From Flammeovirgaceae bacterium (GTDB lineage Bacteria; Bacteroidota; Bacteroidia; Cytophagales; Cyclobacteriaceae), in the NCBI GenBank assembly GCA_947457025.1, contig CANGUI010000002.1:1-28696 (forward strand): a stretch of DNA of 28,696 nucleotides, given 5' to 3'. Shown here piece after piece: positions 11,666-17,103 of the stretch; position 1 is the first letter of the stretch; each line of letters starts with the position of its first letter. The notes below the pieces were generated by a model. The model saw nothing but the letters and a program-made list of their open reading frames with translations, searched no databases and was not told where the DNA came from. Position numbers and translations under genes: made by a program.

Positions 11666-12133
11666 ATGGAATGGCTCGTTGTACTGGCGCTGGTTTCACT
11701 CGGTTTGTTGCTGATTGTCATTGAGGTGATCTTCATCCCGGGCACGACACTCGTAGGGCTTGTGGGGTTTATCTTTGTGGCGGTCGGGGTGGCGCTCAGT
11801 TTCCGGTATTTCGGGCCCGACACCGGATGGGCTACGCTCGGTGGTTCCGCCGTAACCGCAGGAGGGGTGCTTTACTTCGCCCTGAAAACAAATGTGTGGC
11901 GGCGGTTTTCACTCAAGTCTTCCGTGCAGGGCAGGGTGAACGAAGGAATCCTGGATGCCCTGAATGTGGGTATGACGGGCACGAGCACATCGGTGCTTCG
12001 ACCAATGGGCAACGCGGAGATCAACGGCCGCCTGTACGAAGTGCGGACATTGGGCGAATATGTGGAAAGCGGTCAGTCTGTGCGCATCATCCGTATCAGT
12101 GACCATAAAATTTTTGTCGAATCATTTAACTAA
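11666..12133 (+). CDS. NfeD-family membrane protein
   Basis: A 155-residue short NfeD protein. Hydrophobic helices lie at about 3-23, 28-46 and 55-73, followed by a C-terminal OB-fold domain (about 90-153: [27 protein letters not shown]...), the usual NfeD C-domain pattern. The ClpP-like protease domain of long NfeD proteins is absent. Short NfeD proteins work with flotillin-type SPFH proteins, and floA follows after 8 bases, so the two should form a complex in membrane microdomains. The OB domain has the typical GxA.v..ng..ydv...g.yi..G..V.V pattern, so there is no sign of decay. Confidence 0.88.
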
Positions 12134-12141
12134 ATTATCAT

Positions 12142-13122
12142 ATGGCAGAGCTAGGTATCATTGTTATTGTCTTTTTAAGCATCATCGGCTTTTTCCTGTT
12201 CATGTATTTCATTCCGGTGGGCTTATGGATCACCGCTATTTTCGCCAGCGTTGACGTCACCATTGGCGAGCTCATTGGCATGCGGATTCGTAAAGTGCCT
12301 CCGGGTGTGATTGTCAACTCCCTGATCACGGCTACCAAGGCCGGCTTACAACTTACCACGCGCGATCTCGAAACCCATTACCTCGCGGGTGGCAATGTGC
12401 CCAATGTGATCCGCGCCCTGATCTCAGCCGACAAGGCCAACATCAGCCTGAGTTTCAAACAGGCAACCGCCATCGACCTGGCCGGTCGCGACGTATTCGA
12501 GGCCGTGCAGATTTCGGTTAACCCGAAAGTCATCACCACCCCGAAGGTAGCGGCCGTTGCTGCCGATGGAATTCAATTGATTGCGATCGCGCGGGTAACC
12601 GTGCGTGCCAGCATTGCGCAACTTGTGGGTGGCGCCGGCGAAGACACTATTCTGGCCCGCGTTGGCGAAGGCATCGTAACATCCATTGGTTCGGCCAAAT
12701 CACATAAAGAGGTGTTGGAAAACCCCGATAAGATTTCGAAAGTGGTTTTGTCGCGCGGCCTCGATGCCGGTACCGCCTTTGAAATTCTCTCGATTGATAT
12801 TGCCGATGTTGATGTGGGTGCAAACATCGGTGCGAAGTTGCAGACCGATCAGGCGGCAGCCGACCTGAAAGTGGCGGAAGCTAAAGCCGAAGAGCGCCGC
12901 GCGATGGCCGTGGCTGTGGAGCAGGAAATGAAGGCAAAGGCCCAGGAAGCGCGCGCAAAAGTAATCGAAGCCGAGGCGGAGATTCCCAGATCTATTGCTC
13001 AGGCTTTTATGAGCGGCAATCTGGGGGTAATGGACTACTACAAAATGCAGAATGTTCAGGCTGACACCGAAATGCGCCAGTCGATTTCGAGTTCAGGTAA
13101 GGGCGGCACTACGAAGCAGTAG
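12142..13122 (+). CDS. floA: flotillin-like protein FloA
   Basis: A 326-residue FloA/YqfA-type SPFH protein. An N-terminal membrane hairpin lies at about 5-30 ([20 protein letters not shown]), followed by the family-specific [21 protein letters not shown] segment. The SPFH domain comes next, then an alanine/glutamate-rich coiled coil ([30 protein letters not shown] in positions about 249-280). The end is the FloA signature [20 protein letters not shown]. FloA scaffolds fluid membrane microdomains and affects cell-wall and secretion processes in species where it has been studied. It follows nfeD by 8 bases, and a strong terminator 26 bases downstream ends the operon. Confidence 0.95.
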
Positions 13123-13147
13123 AACACATCACCCTCGCGTTACACTG

Positions 13148-13172
13148 AAGCCGGATCGCTCCGGCTTTTTTT
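13148..13172 (+). terminator. rho-independent terminator of nfeD-floA
   Basis: AAGCCGG (13148-13154), a 6-base loop and CCGGCTT (13161-13167) make a perfect 7-bp stem running into seven T (13166-13172). It is the clearest terminator in the window. Confidence 0.9.
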
Positions 13173-13201: not shown

Positions 13202-13810
13202 TTAAAGCCCCTGCCCGTGTGGTCGAGTTGTGGGTTTGTAAGGAAATGCCACCCGCCAAAGGCCGCGCACATCGCCTTGCTTATACCCAACTGCTTTGTC
13301 GCCGGGGTAGAGCTGGCGAATCAACCGATCGTTTTTTTTCAACAATTCATTGCCTGGCGTACCGTGGCAATTCAGGCAGAGCGCCTGGATGATGATCGGC
13401 TTGTAGTAAATCACCGTATCGTTCTTGAGCACCAGTTTCGGGGTGATTGGATTTTTCTCGTTCTGATCGTTGGTAAAACCTTTGATCATAAACTCTTCCA
13501 GCCGGTCGGCTTTATTGTTCCGGTTGCGGGGCTTGTTGGAAACTCGGCGCAGGGAAACGTGCTGCGTCCGGGCAAGCGAGTCGGTCAGGGGAATAGCACG
13601 CACGTTACAATGTTGTAATGCTGCCTCGATGCCGCCACGCTGCAGGGCCGTCTGCAACTCACCACTGATCGCGGCAAAGGCTACCTTCGTGATGGTATCG
13701 CCCTTCAGTAAGAATTGTTCCCGGTCGGCTGCGGGCAATTTCGTCTCTTGTGATTTCTGCCCACAGGAAGCGAGACCAAGAATAACCAGAAAAAAACCGA
13801 ATATCCGCAT
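13202..13810 (-). CDS. c-type haem lipoprotein, Tll0287-like (DUF3365) domain
   Basis: A 202-residue protein. It has a lipoprotein signal with lipobox LASC (lipid-modified Cys16), then a DUF3365/Tll0287-like domain. Visible family marks are Cys68 in ALQHCNVRAIPLTD, the RRVSNKPRNRNN segment (about 88-99) and the c-type haem site C145-L-N-C148-H149. Members are haem-binding redox or gas-sensing modules; here it is probably held at the outer face of the inner membrane or on the outer membrane, so it is extracytoplasmic. ATG 13810 is chosen because it begins the signal peptide directly; the frame extends 17 codons upstream into osmC. One base separates it from the osmC stop (TGA-T-ATG), so it is the last gene of a four-gene operon. 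Its partner for electron transfer is not visible. Confidence 0.88.
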   Translation of the reverse strand: MRIFGFFLVILGLASCGQKSQETKLPAADREQFLLKGDTITKVAFAAISGELQTALQRGGIEAALQHCNVRAIPLTDSLARTQHVSLRRVSNKPRNRNNKADRLEEFMIKGFTNDQNEKNPITPKLVLKNDTVIYYKPIIIQALCLNCHGTPGNELLKKNDRLIRQLYPGDKAVGYKQGDVRGLWRVAFPYKPTTRPHGQGL

Positions 13811-13811
13811 A

Positions 13812-14258
13812 TCACGCCGGCTTGGTAACCTGCACCGTTGGCTGCAAAGATACGGTAGCATTTATTGAGTTGGTTATCAGGCATGCCTGTTCTGCCTTCT
13901 CCAGCACGCGGAGAGCTTTCGCTTCATCAGCATGGTTGGCGATAATCAGCGTTGGACGCAAGGTAACGCGGGTCATCCGGTATCTGCCCTCCACAAGGTC
14001 CAAATCACCGGCCGCCGCGCACTCGAACGCGTCAAAAGATAACCTGGAGTTTTCAGCAATAGCCAGGAAGGTCGTCATGAAGCAACTGTTTACTGCGGCG
14101 GTGAACAGGTGCTCGGGCGACCAGGTACGCCCCACACCTCCCGGAAAGGGAGGCGGTGTAGCCACTTCGAAGGTGGTGGGTATGCCACTAGCAGAAAGAA
14201 GGCCTACGCGGTCTTGCCGCCAGGAAATATTTACCTGATAGGAATGCGGAAGGTTCAT
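13812..14258 (-). CDS. OsmC/Ohr-family protein
   Basis: A 148-residue OsmC-like protein. The two conserved redox cysteines are present: Cys59 in AAVNSCFMTTFLAIAE and Cys126 in AEQACLITNSI. The SPEHLFTAAV segment before the first cysteine is typical. OsmC/Ohr proteins are thiol peroxidases acting on organic hydroperoxides, and several members also act on persulfides; which applies here cannot be read from the sequence. The gene overlaps the upstream DUF2892 gene by four bases (ATGA) and is one base from the haem lipoprotein, so translational coupling is likely. The context of rhodanese and a YgaP-like membrane protein favours a reactive-sulfur or peroxide role. Confidence 0.9.
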   Translation of the reverse strand: MNLPHSYQVNISWRQDRVGLLSASGIPTTFEVATPPPFPGGVGRTWSPEHLFTAAVNSCFMTTFLAIAENSRLSFDAFECAAAGDLDLVEGRYRMTRVTLRPTLIIANHADEAKALRVLEKAEQACLITNSINATVSLQPTVQVTKPA

Positions 14259-14503
14259 CGATTACTCACTTTTGTCTCCAACTGAGTTGCCCCGGACGTT
14301 TTCCGCTGGGGTTGCGGAACCACCGCGCAGCCGACCACACCGCAACAGGAAATATTGAAGAGGCCCTGTAGGAACGTAACGGCACCCAAAGTAGCTATGA
14401 GCGAATCGCGATACACAATGCCGGCGGTTACTGCCAACAGCCCCAAGACCACACGCAACAGGCGCATGGCATTCCACAATCCCAGCCTTATTCCCGTGAT
14501 CAT
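14255..14503 (-). CDS. DUF2892 (YgaP-type) two-helix membrane protein
   Basis: An 82-residue protein with two membrane helices (about 12-30 and 35-60) separated by YRDS. A cysteine cluster, ISCCGVVGCAV, stands at the end of helix 2, as in DUF2892 proteins; a polar tail follows. In E. coli YgaP this module is fused to a rhodanese domain. Here the two are separate genes overlapping by four bases (ATGA at 14500-14503), with the rhodanese upstream. The protein probably anchors or serves the rhodanese at the membrane, possibly in transfer of sulfane sulfur. It overlaps osmC by four bases as well. Confidence 0.85.
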   Translation of the reverse strand: MITGIRLGLWNAMRLLRVVLGLLAVTAGIVYRDSLIATLGAVTFLQGLFNISCCGVVGCAVVPQPQRKTSGATQLETKVSNR

Positions 14504-14811
14504 CCCACCTTGTGTTGAAGACTCATCCAGCCGCCCCCGTTGTACACCTCAAAACCTTTTGCTTGCAGCAGCGACTTGGCCGAACCGCTGCGCCCCCCGC
14601 TTGCGCAGCAGGTGATCACCACTTTGTCTTTGCGAATCCGGCTAATCTGGTTTTCGAGTTGGTCGAGCGGAATGTTGACGGAGCCCCGGATATGACCGGC
14701 GGCATACTCCCCCTTTGTGCGCACGTCTATAATCTGAGCTCCGTTTTTCACGAGCTCCGGGTAATTCACTTTGGGACCGAGTCCAAAAAGTTGTTTTAAC
14801 ATTTCCATCAT
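14500..14811 (-). CDS. single-domain rhodanese
   Basis: A 103-residue rhodanese domain with the catalytic loop C69-A-S-G-G-R-S75 and typical IIDVRTKGEYAAGHIRGSVNIPL. Cys69 should carry the persulfide; Cys68 next to it is unusual and could form a second thiol. There is no signal peptide, so it is cytoplasmic. As first gene of the operon rhodanese - DUF2892 - OsmC - haem lipoprotein, it probably moves or disposes of sulfane sulfur. The start is the first of two tandem ATGs at 14811; an imperfect -7 element and a Crp/Fnr-like palindrome lie just upstream. Confidence 0.92.
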   Translation of the reverse strand: MMEMLKQLFGLGPKVNYPELVKNGAQIIDVRTKGEYAAGHIRGSVNIPLDQLENQISRIRKDKVVITCCASGGRSGSAKSLLQAKGFEVYNGGGWMSLQHKVG

Positions 14812-14836
14812 ACTTTAGATTTGTTGATTTCTGGCA

Positions 14837-14844
14837 CAAAGTTG
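14837..14844 (-). promoter_or_regulatory. imperfect -7 element of the rhodanese operon
   Basis: Minus-strand CAACTTTG differs from TAnnTTTG only at its first base. It predicts a transcription start near 14832-14830 and a leader of about 20 bases. No -33 TTG is seen at the right distance, which fits a promoter needing an activator at the neighbouring palindrome. Confidence 0.45.
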
Positions 14845-14866
14845 GCAACCAGCGCTGTCCCTGCCT

Positions 14867-14880
14867 GTGACTTGAGTCAC
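14867..14880. promoter_or_regulatory. Crp/Fnr-type operator palindrome
   Basis: GTGACTTGAGTCAC is a perfect palindrome of GTGAC half-sites around TTGA. In the frame TGTGA-N6-TCACG it differs from the classical CRP site at one base, and as xTGAC-N4-GTCAx it also resembles Fnr/FixK-type sites. Its centre (14873.5) lies about 41-43 bases upstream of the start predicted from the -7 element, the standard class II activator position. Which family member binds is unknown. Confidence 0.6.
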
Positions 14881-14893
14881 GCGGCGCAAAAAA

Positions 14894-17029
14894 TCAGGGA
14901 AAAAGTTTTTCTTCTCTGGACGGCAGGCGTGCAAAAAACGTGTGGGTTCCCGCCTGATAGAGAAGCAGTTCGTACACCATGGGGATTTTGCTGAGCCCTT
15001 CCCGCGTCAGCACGCCGTATTTCCCCGCCTGCCGCACGAGCACATCCGTGTTTGGCAAGACCTGCAACACGTCAAAGCGGGGCTCAATCAGCACCATGCC
15101 CTGCCGGTCAGCCATGCCAACGAGGTTTGATAGTTCGATGCGGTAATCGCCCGAAGCCAGTTCATGCACGGCACTGTAGCGAAGTGGAATAACCAACTCT
15201 CCTTTGCGATTGATCACGCCCCATCTGCCATCCCGTGAAACAATGGAACGATCGGCCGAAAAGGGAGCCACTGAATCATAGTTCGGATTGATTACCACCT
15301 GGTCTTTGGTGTTGACATAGCCCCAGCGGCCGAGAATTTTTACAGCAGCGAGCCCTTCGCTGAAAAACCCGATGCCTTCGTACCGATTTGCCACGCGGAG
15401 TTTTCCTTTCGCATCCAGAAATCCATAGCGGCCATCGCGCTGAAAACCGCGCATGCCTTCATGCTCGGCAAACCATTCCGGCAGTGGGCGCTTTTCCACT
15501 TTCGGCAGCGGCACGGTTGCAGCCGGGACTGGCTCGTGCTTATGCTCACGCCCATCCAGGCCGATCAGCCGGTCCGGTTGGCCGGGTAGCTGCTCCCGGA
15601 GGTATCCGTTCTCAACGCGCAGCGAATTCATGGTAAAGTAGATCACCCTGCCATCGAGTCGCTTCAACCACGTAGCCGTCGGTTCACGCAGCAAGTAGTA
15701 GTCTTCCGCTACAAGCTCAAGCGGGTAAGGTTGCGGCCGCAGCAGCCAGCGGTCTGCCGGCGAAATCAGACCGTAAAGCCCTTTAAAACGGACGGCGAGC
15801 ATTTCCTCGCCTACTTGCAGGATACTGTCGTACACACAGGCCACCTGTTCGTTGCCATAGCGGTCGACAACGCCGGCATAGGCGTTGGCGACTACCACAA
15901 AGCGGTTATTGCGGAAAGGCAGGATGTGGTCGTAGTAGCGTTTGGTTTTCCGGATTCCGAATGTGTCGTACACACTCCACATCGGTTCTCCCCAGGGTCG
16001 TTCTACAGCGCGAATGAGACTCCCCTGAACATGCAGCGAATCGAAACGGATGGGTAAAACCTCCGAGCCATCCGCGCGAATCAAGCCGAACTTCCCCTCT
16101 AGCCGGGCCAGCCAATGGGGGCCGCAACGCTCTAATTGTTCATAGCGGGTGGGCAGTTGGGTGGCCCAGTTTTGCGTCAGCAACCCATAGCGATCTGCCT
16201 GCCTGATCCGGATATACGGGGGCACCGCATCTAGTTCATCGGCATGGAGCGTATGCCTGGTTTCATGGTCGGCCGAGATGATCTTCCACTCCGGAAAGGT
16301 CCGGCCCCGCCAGTATTGGTCGTATTGGATTTCGCGGTAACGCGCCGGCACCGCCCACTCCCCCTGCCGGGTGATGAGGCCCTGGTGAAGCTGCTGGTAG
16401 ACAATAGCATAGTCATGCTGAAAGGCCGAAAGGCTGTCGATGGTGAAGTCGGTGAGCGCTTCGCCCGACTCGGAAAACAGGGCCATCTTACGATCGAAAT
16501 CCTCGACCGCGAAACGCAAAGTACCGAGCGGCGTAACCGACCGGTACTTCAATGGAATGACGCGCTGGTCGGACAAGGTGATCACGCCATGCTCGTAACG
16601 GCTGCCATTCTTATTGAAGACAATCGCCCGCAGCCCGACCACCTGGAGGCCATCGTAATGAAAGGGTATGGAGGGCTTGCCGTCTGGCGGCAGCAGGCCG
16701 AACTTGGTGGTGAACGGGTTCAACTCGCGGGCAGCCAGAAAATAATCACCGCCGGCCGGCCGCAGTTCCTGAAAGTCGGGAGGTGTGATTTCTTTTTTTT
16801 CCAGGTGCAGCAGGCCCCACCGGTTTTGCAGGCGGTAGCCGGTTAGGCCGGCAGTAACCGAGAACGTTCCGTCCGACCAGCCAAGCGCATCAAAGCGGGG
16901 CGGAACCACTACGACGCCCTGCGCATTGCGGAGGCCCACTTTGCCCCCTTCGGAAAAAGGTTGAAACTGCCCGGCAGCGGGCAGGAAAGAAAACACCAGC
17001 AGTGCAGTGAGAAGAAAAAGCCGCCCCAT
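14894..17029 (-). CDS. secreted WG-repeat protein
   Basis: A 711-residue protein with a signal peptide (MGRLFLLTALLVFSFLPAAGQ), then about 14 WG-like repeats covering almost the whole chain. Each has the pattern G-x-[WYF]-G-[LVF]-x(5-8)-I/V-P-x-x-[YF]-[DE]-x-[LIV], e.g. GRWGYVNTKDQVVINPNYDSV and GRYGFLDAKGKLRVANRYEGI. About 50 residues at 475-530, rich in Pro/Lys/Glu, break the series and may be a linker. WG repeats form beta-rich solenoid or propeller-like scaffolds; the binding partner is unknown. ATG 17029 is chosen over 17047: the upstream codons ATG TAC ATT TGC contain an exact -7 element, so they belong to the promoter. It diverges from prfC. Confidence 0.85.
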   Translation of the reverse strand: MGRLFLLTALLVFSFLPAAGQFQPFSEGGKVGLRNAQGVVVVPPRFDALGWSDGTFSVTAGLTGYRLQNRWGLLHLEKKEITPPDFQELRPAGGDYFLAARELNPFTTKFGLLPPDGKPSIPFHYDGLQVVGLRAIVFNKNGSRYEHGVITLSDQRVIPLKYRSVTPLGTLRFAVEDFDRKMALFSESGEALTDFTIDSLSAFQHDYAIVYQQLHQGLITRQGEWAVPARYREIQYDQYWRGRTFPEWKIISADHETRHTLHADELDAVPPYIRIRQADRYGLLTQNWATQLPTRYEQLERCGPHWLARLEGKFGLIRADGSEVLPIRFDSLHVQGSLIRAVERPWGEPMWSVYDTFGIRKTKRYYDHILPFRNNRFVVVANAYAGVVDRYGNEQVACVYDSILQVGEEMLAVRFKGLYGLISPADRWLLRPQPYPLELVAEDYYLLREPTATWLKRLDGRVIYFTMNSLRVENGYLREQLPGQPDRLIGLDGREHKHEPVPAATVPLPKVEKRPLPEWFAEHEGMRGFQRDGRYGFLDAKGKLRVANRYEGIGFFSEGLAAVKILGRWGYVNTKDQVVINPNYDSVAPFSADRSIVSRDGRWGVINRKGELVIPLRYSAVHELASGDYRIELSNLVGMADRQGMVLIEPRFDVLQVLPNTDVLVRQAGKYGVLTREGLSKIPMVYELLLYQAGTHTFFARLPSREEKLFP

Positions 17030-17036
17030 CAACAGG

Positions 17037-17044
17037 CAAATGTA
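17037..17044 (-). promoter_or_regulatory. -7 promoter element of the WG-repeat gene
   Basis: Minus-strand TACATTTG is an exact TAnnTTTG match ending 7 bases before ATG 17029. Transcription should begin at or within a few bases of the start codon. Confidence 0.6.
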
Positions 17045-17103
17045 CATAAAGAGCCGTGAGCCGAATCCCTGCAGCAGGCTGATCGAAATTCTATGGCATT
17101 CCG

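Follow-up and report, generated by a model that had tools for sequence, protein, structure and literature searches.

Haem proteins of the sCache_heme family have been surveyed by Deshpande et al. (2026, PMC12889525), whose main text reports that nearly half of these domains stand alone and apparently names no pathway for the stand-alone members; a word search of this main text finds neither 'rhodanese' nor 'operon'. In the same account, members fused to signalling modules show NO-sensor properties, and the one stand-alone member studied, a Cys/His-ligated protein of P. putida, has weak NO binding. SoxA and TsdA carry thiolate-ligated c-haems that perform chemistry on sulfur oxoanions (PMC9562282), at the Cys ligand (PMC9562282, PMC4423706). 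DsrJ is proposed to act similarly, and TsdA has a cytochrome c fold (PMC9562282). The operon described here ends in a stand-alone sCache_heme protein which, compared with Tll0287 (PDB 5b82) and the proteins of Deshpande et al., is lipid-anchored and lies within a rhodanese-OsmC operon. Like SoxA, TsdA and DsrJ, it has a sulfur gene context and, as judged from an aligned column, probably Cys/His ligation of its c-haem, but its predicted structure has a Cache fold and not a cytochrome c fold. The operon also resembles the PDO/rhodanese/DUF2892/thioredoxin sulfane-sulfur clusters (PDO, persulfide dioxygenase) of Bacteroidota relatives, which have rhodanese, DUF2892-like, OsmC and thioredoxin modules and a Crp or ArsR regulator. 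Unlike those clusters, it has no PDO, and the haem lipoprotein stands where genus relatives have thioredoxin. In the main texts of open journals, no listed title or abstract beginning on Tll0287/DUF3365, rhodanese, OsmC, DUF2892 and PDO describes the association.

The window, that is, the whole stretch of 28,696 nucleotides that was analysed, is the entire source contig of a genome that is 70% complete (358 contigs, 2.26 Mb). Within it lies a compact set of four ORFs, all on the minus strand, in the order rhodanese, 82-aa membrane protein, OsmC and haem lipoprotein (Table 1). ATGA overlaps join the rhodanese to the membrane protein gene (14500-14503) and the latter to OsmC (14255-14258), and a single base (13811) separates the OsmC stop from the ATG of the lipoprotein, as the earlier note had read them. 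Operon coding begins at 14811, after an 82-bp gap (14812-14893) that follows a WG-repeat gene. The earlier reading is supported as far as a compact unit with an operator-like site in front is concerned, and the four genes look like one switchable unit. For the lipoprotein, a longer listed ORF starting at 13861 was rejected; it overlaps OsmC, and the start at 13810 yields a signal peptide. The WG-repeat protein (14894-17047) is encoded on the same strand and ends 82 bp before the operon. From the other side, nfeD and floA (11666-13122, plus strand) converge on the operon, and a terminator-like hairpin lies at 13147-13168.

Table 1. Features of the operon and its upstream gap, in window coordinates
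Feature	Position	Strand	Details
Single-domain rhodanese, loop CCASGGRS	14500-14811	-	103 aa; PF00581 E 2e-17
Small membrane protein, YgaP/DUF2892-like, CCGVVGC motif	14255-14503	-	82 aa; PF11127 sub-threshold
OsmC-family protein, invariant C59 and C126	13812-14258	-	148 aa; PF02566 E 1.8e-16
Stand-alone sCache_heme (Tll0287-like) lipoprotein, CLNCH haem motif, axial-Cys column C68	13202-13810	-	202 aa; PF11845 E 8.8e-23
CRP/FNR-type operator-like palindrome TGTGACTTGAGTCACG	14866-14881	.	82-bp gap upstream of rhodanese

Rhodanese, OsmC and the Tll0287-like lipoprotein pass their Pfam cut-offs, and the membrane protein falls below its own. The rhodanese matches PF00581 and has a Cys in its active loop, which we take to be the CCASGGRS motif; it is 55-70% identical to OsmC-adjacent rhodaneses of genus relatives. 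The OsmC protein matches PF02566 and retains two conserved cysteines, presumably the catalytic ones. The 82-aa protein belongs to a small membrane family with a CC..GC-type motif, whose members turn up repeatedly in relatives in the vicinity of rhodanese or PDO genes. Judged by their families, these three proteins resemble a sulfane-sulfur kit. In E. coli YgaP a rhodanese is combined with a membrane domain, and the window rhodanese likewise adjoins a small membrane protein, but here the genes are separate. The identification of the first two genes as split halves of YgaP is weak, because the membrane protein does not reach the YgaP-like_TM (PF11127) cut-off (E 0.14; 12.8 bits against 25.3) and the rhodanese is closer to other rhodanese domains in the PDB (beta-lactamase/rhodanese proteins, CoA-disulfide reductase and PspE all score better than YgaP, E 2e-4).

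The last gene was correctly described earlier as a CxxCH DUF3365 lipoprotein. It scores 81.8 bits against a PF11845 cut-off of 24.1, carries the haem motif CLNCH and the lipobox LASC/G, and its predicted structure is Tll0287/Cache-like in a VIA-align comparison. C68 falls in the column of the cysteine of the aligned Tll0287 stretch, where 161 of 162 rows have C, and this column suggests Cys/His ligation of the c-haem. Its lipobox and c-haem predict an extracytoplasmic location; the same genome carries a cytochrome c assembly match. The axial cysteine is equally conserved in family members away from sulfur genes. It is common to the whole stand-alone family and hence is no marker of a link to sulfur genes.

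The operator-like site differs by one mismatch from TGTGA-N6-TCACA. We scanned the 400 bp upstream of 16 rhodanese-OsmC clusters, including that of the window and one (L048) from outside the genus, and 10 of them (9 of the 15 others) have such a site with no more than one mismatch. Five clusters have an exact match, five one mismatch and six two or more; L036 and L038 carry an exact site ~460 bp ahead of their first called gene. The window site is one of 41 in the 2.26-Mb genome, where a control pattern occurs 21 times. At haem-lipoprotein loci generally the operator shows no clear enrichment, as 7 of 145 loci have it and the control gave 3 matches. The usual cluster of the genus runs Crp/Fnr regulator, operator, DUF6132, one or two rhodaneses, OsmC and thioredoxin, with the Crp gene of L041 assigned by Pfam. 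Apart from the haem gene, the operon in the window resembles this genus norm; no Crp gene adjoins it. On contig 146 of the same genome lies its best Crp homologue (35%), directly followed by a PDO gene whose product is 61% identical over 181 aa to the PDO of L277, a cluster described below.

To place the lipoprotein among its relatives, overlapping sets of 58 relatives (matches in 28), 291 genomes of the order (106) and 395 of the phylum (110) were searched. A further 15 loci came from named records through a genus-level profile, a first one having been too divergent; the records whose lipoproteins are nearest are for the most part MAGs of Cyclobacteriaceae and Cytophagales. Nine of the 106 order genomes with matches, and most fused or weakest matches of the 395-genome set, were omitted from the loci. 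A filter for a length of 150-299 aa and a flank of 0.9 kb or more retained 154 of the 174 unique haem genes and removed 20; the resulting loci span 153 genomes, 76 genus bins and 35 family bins, of which one bin each holds records without a code. A simple longest-ORF rule served to call the neighbouring genes; it missed two rhodaneses, in L115 (genome G023, where the gene is 1.4 kb away on the other strand) and L364 (G564), which a six-frame search recovered.

Judged by called genes within 1.5 kb of the haem lipoprotein, 20 genomes have a rhodanese (one is an unassigned record, the others represent 15 genera and 11 families) and 7 have OsmC (5 genera, 3 families); thioredoxin-like genes occur in 15 genomes, DUF6132 in 6, DUF2892-like in 5 and a sulfur transporter in 4. 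The six-frame search raises the rhodanese loci to 22 of 154. A sulfane-sulfur setting, as proposed before, is supported. Rhodanese and/or OsmC lies within this distance at 26 of the 154 loci (called genes show it at 24, and the six-frame search adds two); neither is present in the other 128 (130 by called genes). At the 81 loci whose flanks reach 4.5 kb or more in both directions, with the two six-frame rhodaneses left out, 22, 3 and 3 rhodanese genes fall at 0-1.5, 1.5-3 and 3-4.5 kb, in 15, 3 and 3 loci (binomial 1e-6 on genes and 4e-4 on loci, the loci not being independent). Of the 19 loci (147 examined) that have a rhodanese within 1.5 kb, 18 have it on the strand of the haem gene.

Immediate neighbours point to the same families. 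By Pfam, 113 of 115 listed neighbouring proteins at 60 phylum loci (the list excludes genes longer than 1100 aa or truncated at their start) include 13 AhpC-TSA, 11 thioredoxin, 9 rhodanese and 4 OsmC. In a control at ±5 genes, which took 60 of 71 listed proteins and mostly dropped those running to the locus end, rhodanese occurs three times, and AhpC-TSA, thioredoxin and OsmC are absent among the 25 of 79 families listed. Three control genes (L324, L332, L348) carried rhodanese or PDO labels and belong to such clusters.

Individual clusters, labelled by our HMMs (some parts also by Pfam) unless Pfam is named, vary in composition. L340 (PDO-rhodanese-DUF2892-haem-DUF6132) is closest to the window and has no OsmC. 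L275 is arranged as ArsR-rhodanese-haem-thioredoxin with a single base between rhodanese and haem gene, L155 (Flavobacteriales) as rhodanese-haem-thioredoxin with gaps of 1 and -1, L277 as ArsR-PDO-rhodanese-haem-Usp-sulfur transport pair, and L335, by Pfam, as DUF6132-AhpC/TSA-haem-FeThRed_B-rhodanese-OsmC. OsmC adjoins the haem lipoprotein in L333, L334 and L336 (Pfam) and in L339 (HMM). Genome G582 carries two stand-alone sCache_heme genes ~21 kb apart (L341 and L331), one of them within a TauE-PDO-DUF2892-haem cluster that has a sulfur-transport pair close by. In the window's genus, a rhodanese and a DUF2892-like gene of G023 (L115:4374-4884) lie ~1.1-1.6 kb from the haem gene on the other strand.

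Conservation of the four-gene order, the check suggested in the earlier note, had a divided outcome: among the loci collected the exact order was seen in this genome only, and pairings of the haem lipoprotein with rhodanese or OsmC recur. All three occur together in three genomes of two genera (the window's own, G444 and G699). In the same 58 and 291 genomes, haem lipoprotein and OsmC within 10 kb were seen by eye in G000 only, with OsmC queries that miss a second subfamily, one that turned up later in families f35 and f48. Within the genus, the haem lipoprotein and the rhodanese-OsmC cluster each occur without the other. Phyletic co-occurrence with PDO was discarded as evidence; PDO matches are so common in the order (248 of 291 genomes) that it is uninformative. 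In a quick tree of the 154 rows, a rhodanese/OsmC label on 24 of them (the two six-frame rhodaneses not included) cannot be explained by fewer than 13 changes, and starred branches force at least 7 of these. Shuffled labels need ~23, so the label is clustered yet repeated. None of the 14 other rows in the starred clade of the window carries it, and the next nearest row by path outside this clade is L275. From these gene neighbourhoods, we judge the association of haem lipoprotein and sulfur genes to be recurrent, not obligate.

We think it rather likely that the window holds a CRP/FNR-controlled operon for handling sulfane sulfur (persulfide, polysulfide or thiosulfate). The rhodanese would move cytoplasmic sulfane sulfur, and the membrane protein with the CC motif may serve as a relay or anchor at the inner membrane. 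OsmC would reduce the product, a per-sulfur compound or a peroxide. The extracytoplasmic redox step would fall, whether by catalysis, electron transport or sensing, to the lipid-anchored haem protein. Its Cys/His-ligated c-haem may swap electrons with the same class of sulfur compound, or bind its sulfur through the cysteine. Purely by analogy with TsdA and SoxA, the lipoprotein might act on a sulfur compound as an oxidant, a reductant or a sensor, and the enzymes inside would process the sulfane sulfur of that compound. Haem proteins beside sulfur genes in a number of related bacteria point to a sulfur-related job for the sCache_heme family. We propose, tentatively and against likelihood, that rhodanese/OsmC-linked stand-alone members form a new class of sulfur-active cytochromes, in which a thiolate-ligated c-haem on a sensor-type (Cache) fold would oxidise, reduce or sense extracytoplasmic sulfane sulfur and hand sulfur or a signal to an inner rhodanese-OsmC-thioredoxin system.

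Several of the observations above speak against the sulfane-sulfur reading: the 128 loci with neither rhodanese nor OsmC, the 14 clade mates of the window row that lack the label, the separate occurrence of haem lipoprotein and rhodanese-OsmC cluster within the genus, the axial cysteine shared by the whole family, the lack of clear operator enrichment and the six scanned clusters with no operator within 400 bp. Other contexts of the family also have to be considered. In L110:5978-11636 (G007) and L115:6005-11575 (G023), the stand-alone sCache_heme gene adjoins apparent NAD-type [NiFe] hydrogenase genes (HoxF-like, HoxH-like and a maturation protease, named from their sequences alone). In eight of the nine loci L101-L109 (not L104), the haem lipoprotein is beside two apparent LytS-type kinases and a LytTR response regulator, named from L101 sequences; the haem gene follows these genes, and a secreted protein of ~470 aa is often upstream.

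The lipoprotein might instead be a promiscuous general redox or electron-transfer protein, placed behind a sulfur operon by rearrangement and co-transcribed with no specific sulfur job. The 128 sampled members away from rhodanese and OsmC, the hydrogenase and LytS/LytTR contexts and the confinement of the exact gene order to this genome all favour it, but adjacency across 15 genera and one unassigned record, steep decay with distance and several changes on the tree are more than chance, and we regard this explanation as rather unlikely. An extracytoplasmic redox or NO sensor, with a kinase or CRP/FNR system as output and carried with genes it helps regulate, would suit the predicted Cache fold, the NO-sensor properties of fused members (PMC12889525) and the LytS-type kinase pair beside genus homologues, but it is quite improbable given the weak NO binding of the Cys/His-ligated P. 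putida protein (PMC12889525) and the flanking of the operon by a WG-repeat protein and floA, with no kinase.

For a sulfane-sulfur role, the recurrent neighbourhood offers a directly testable pathway for orphan stand-alone sCache_heme proteins. Such a pathway would carry the sulfur chemistry of Cys/His-ligated haems over to a non-cytochrome fold.
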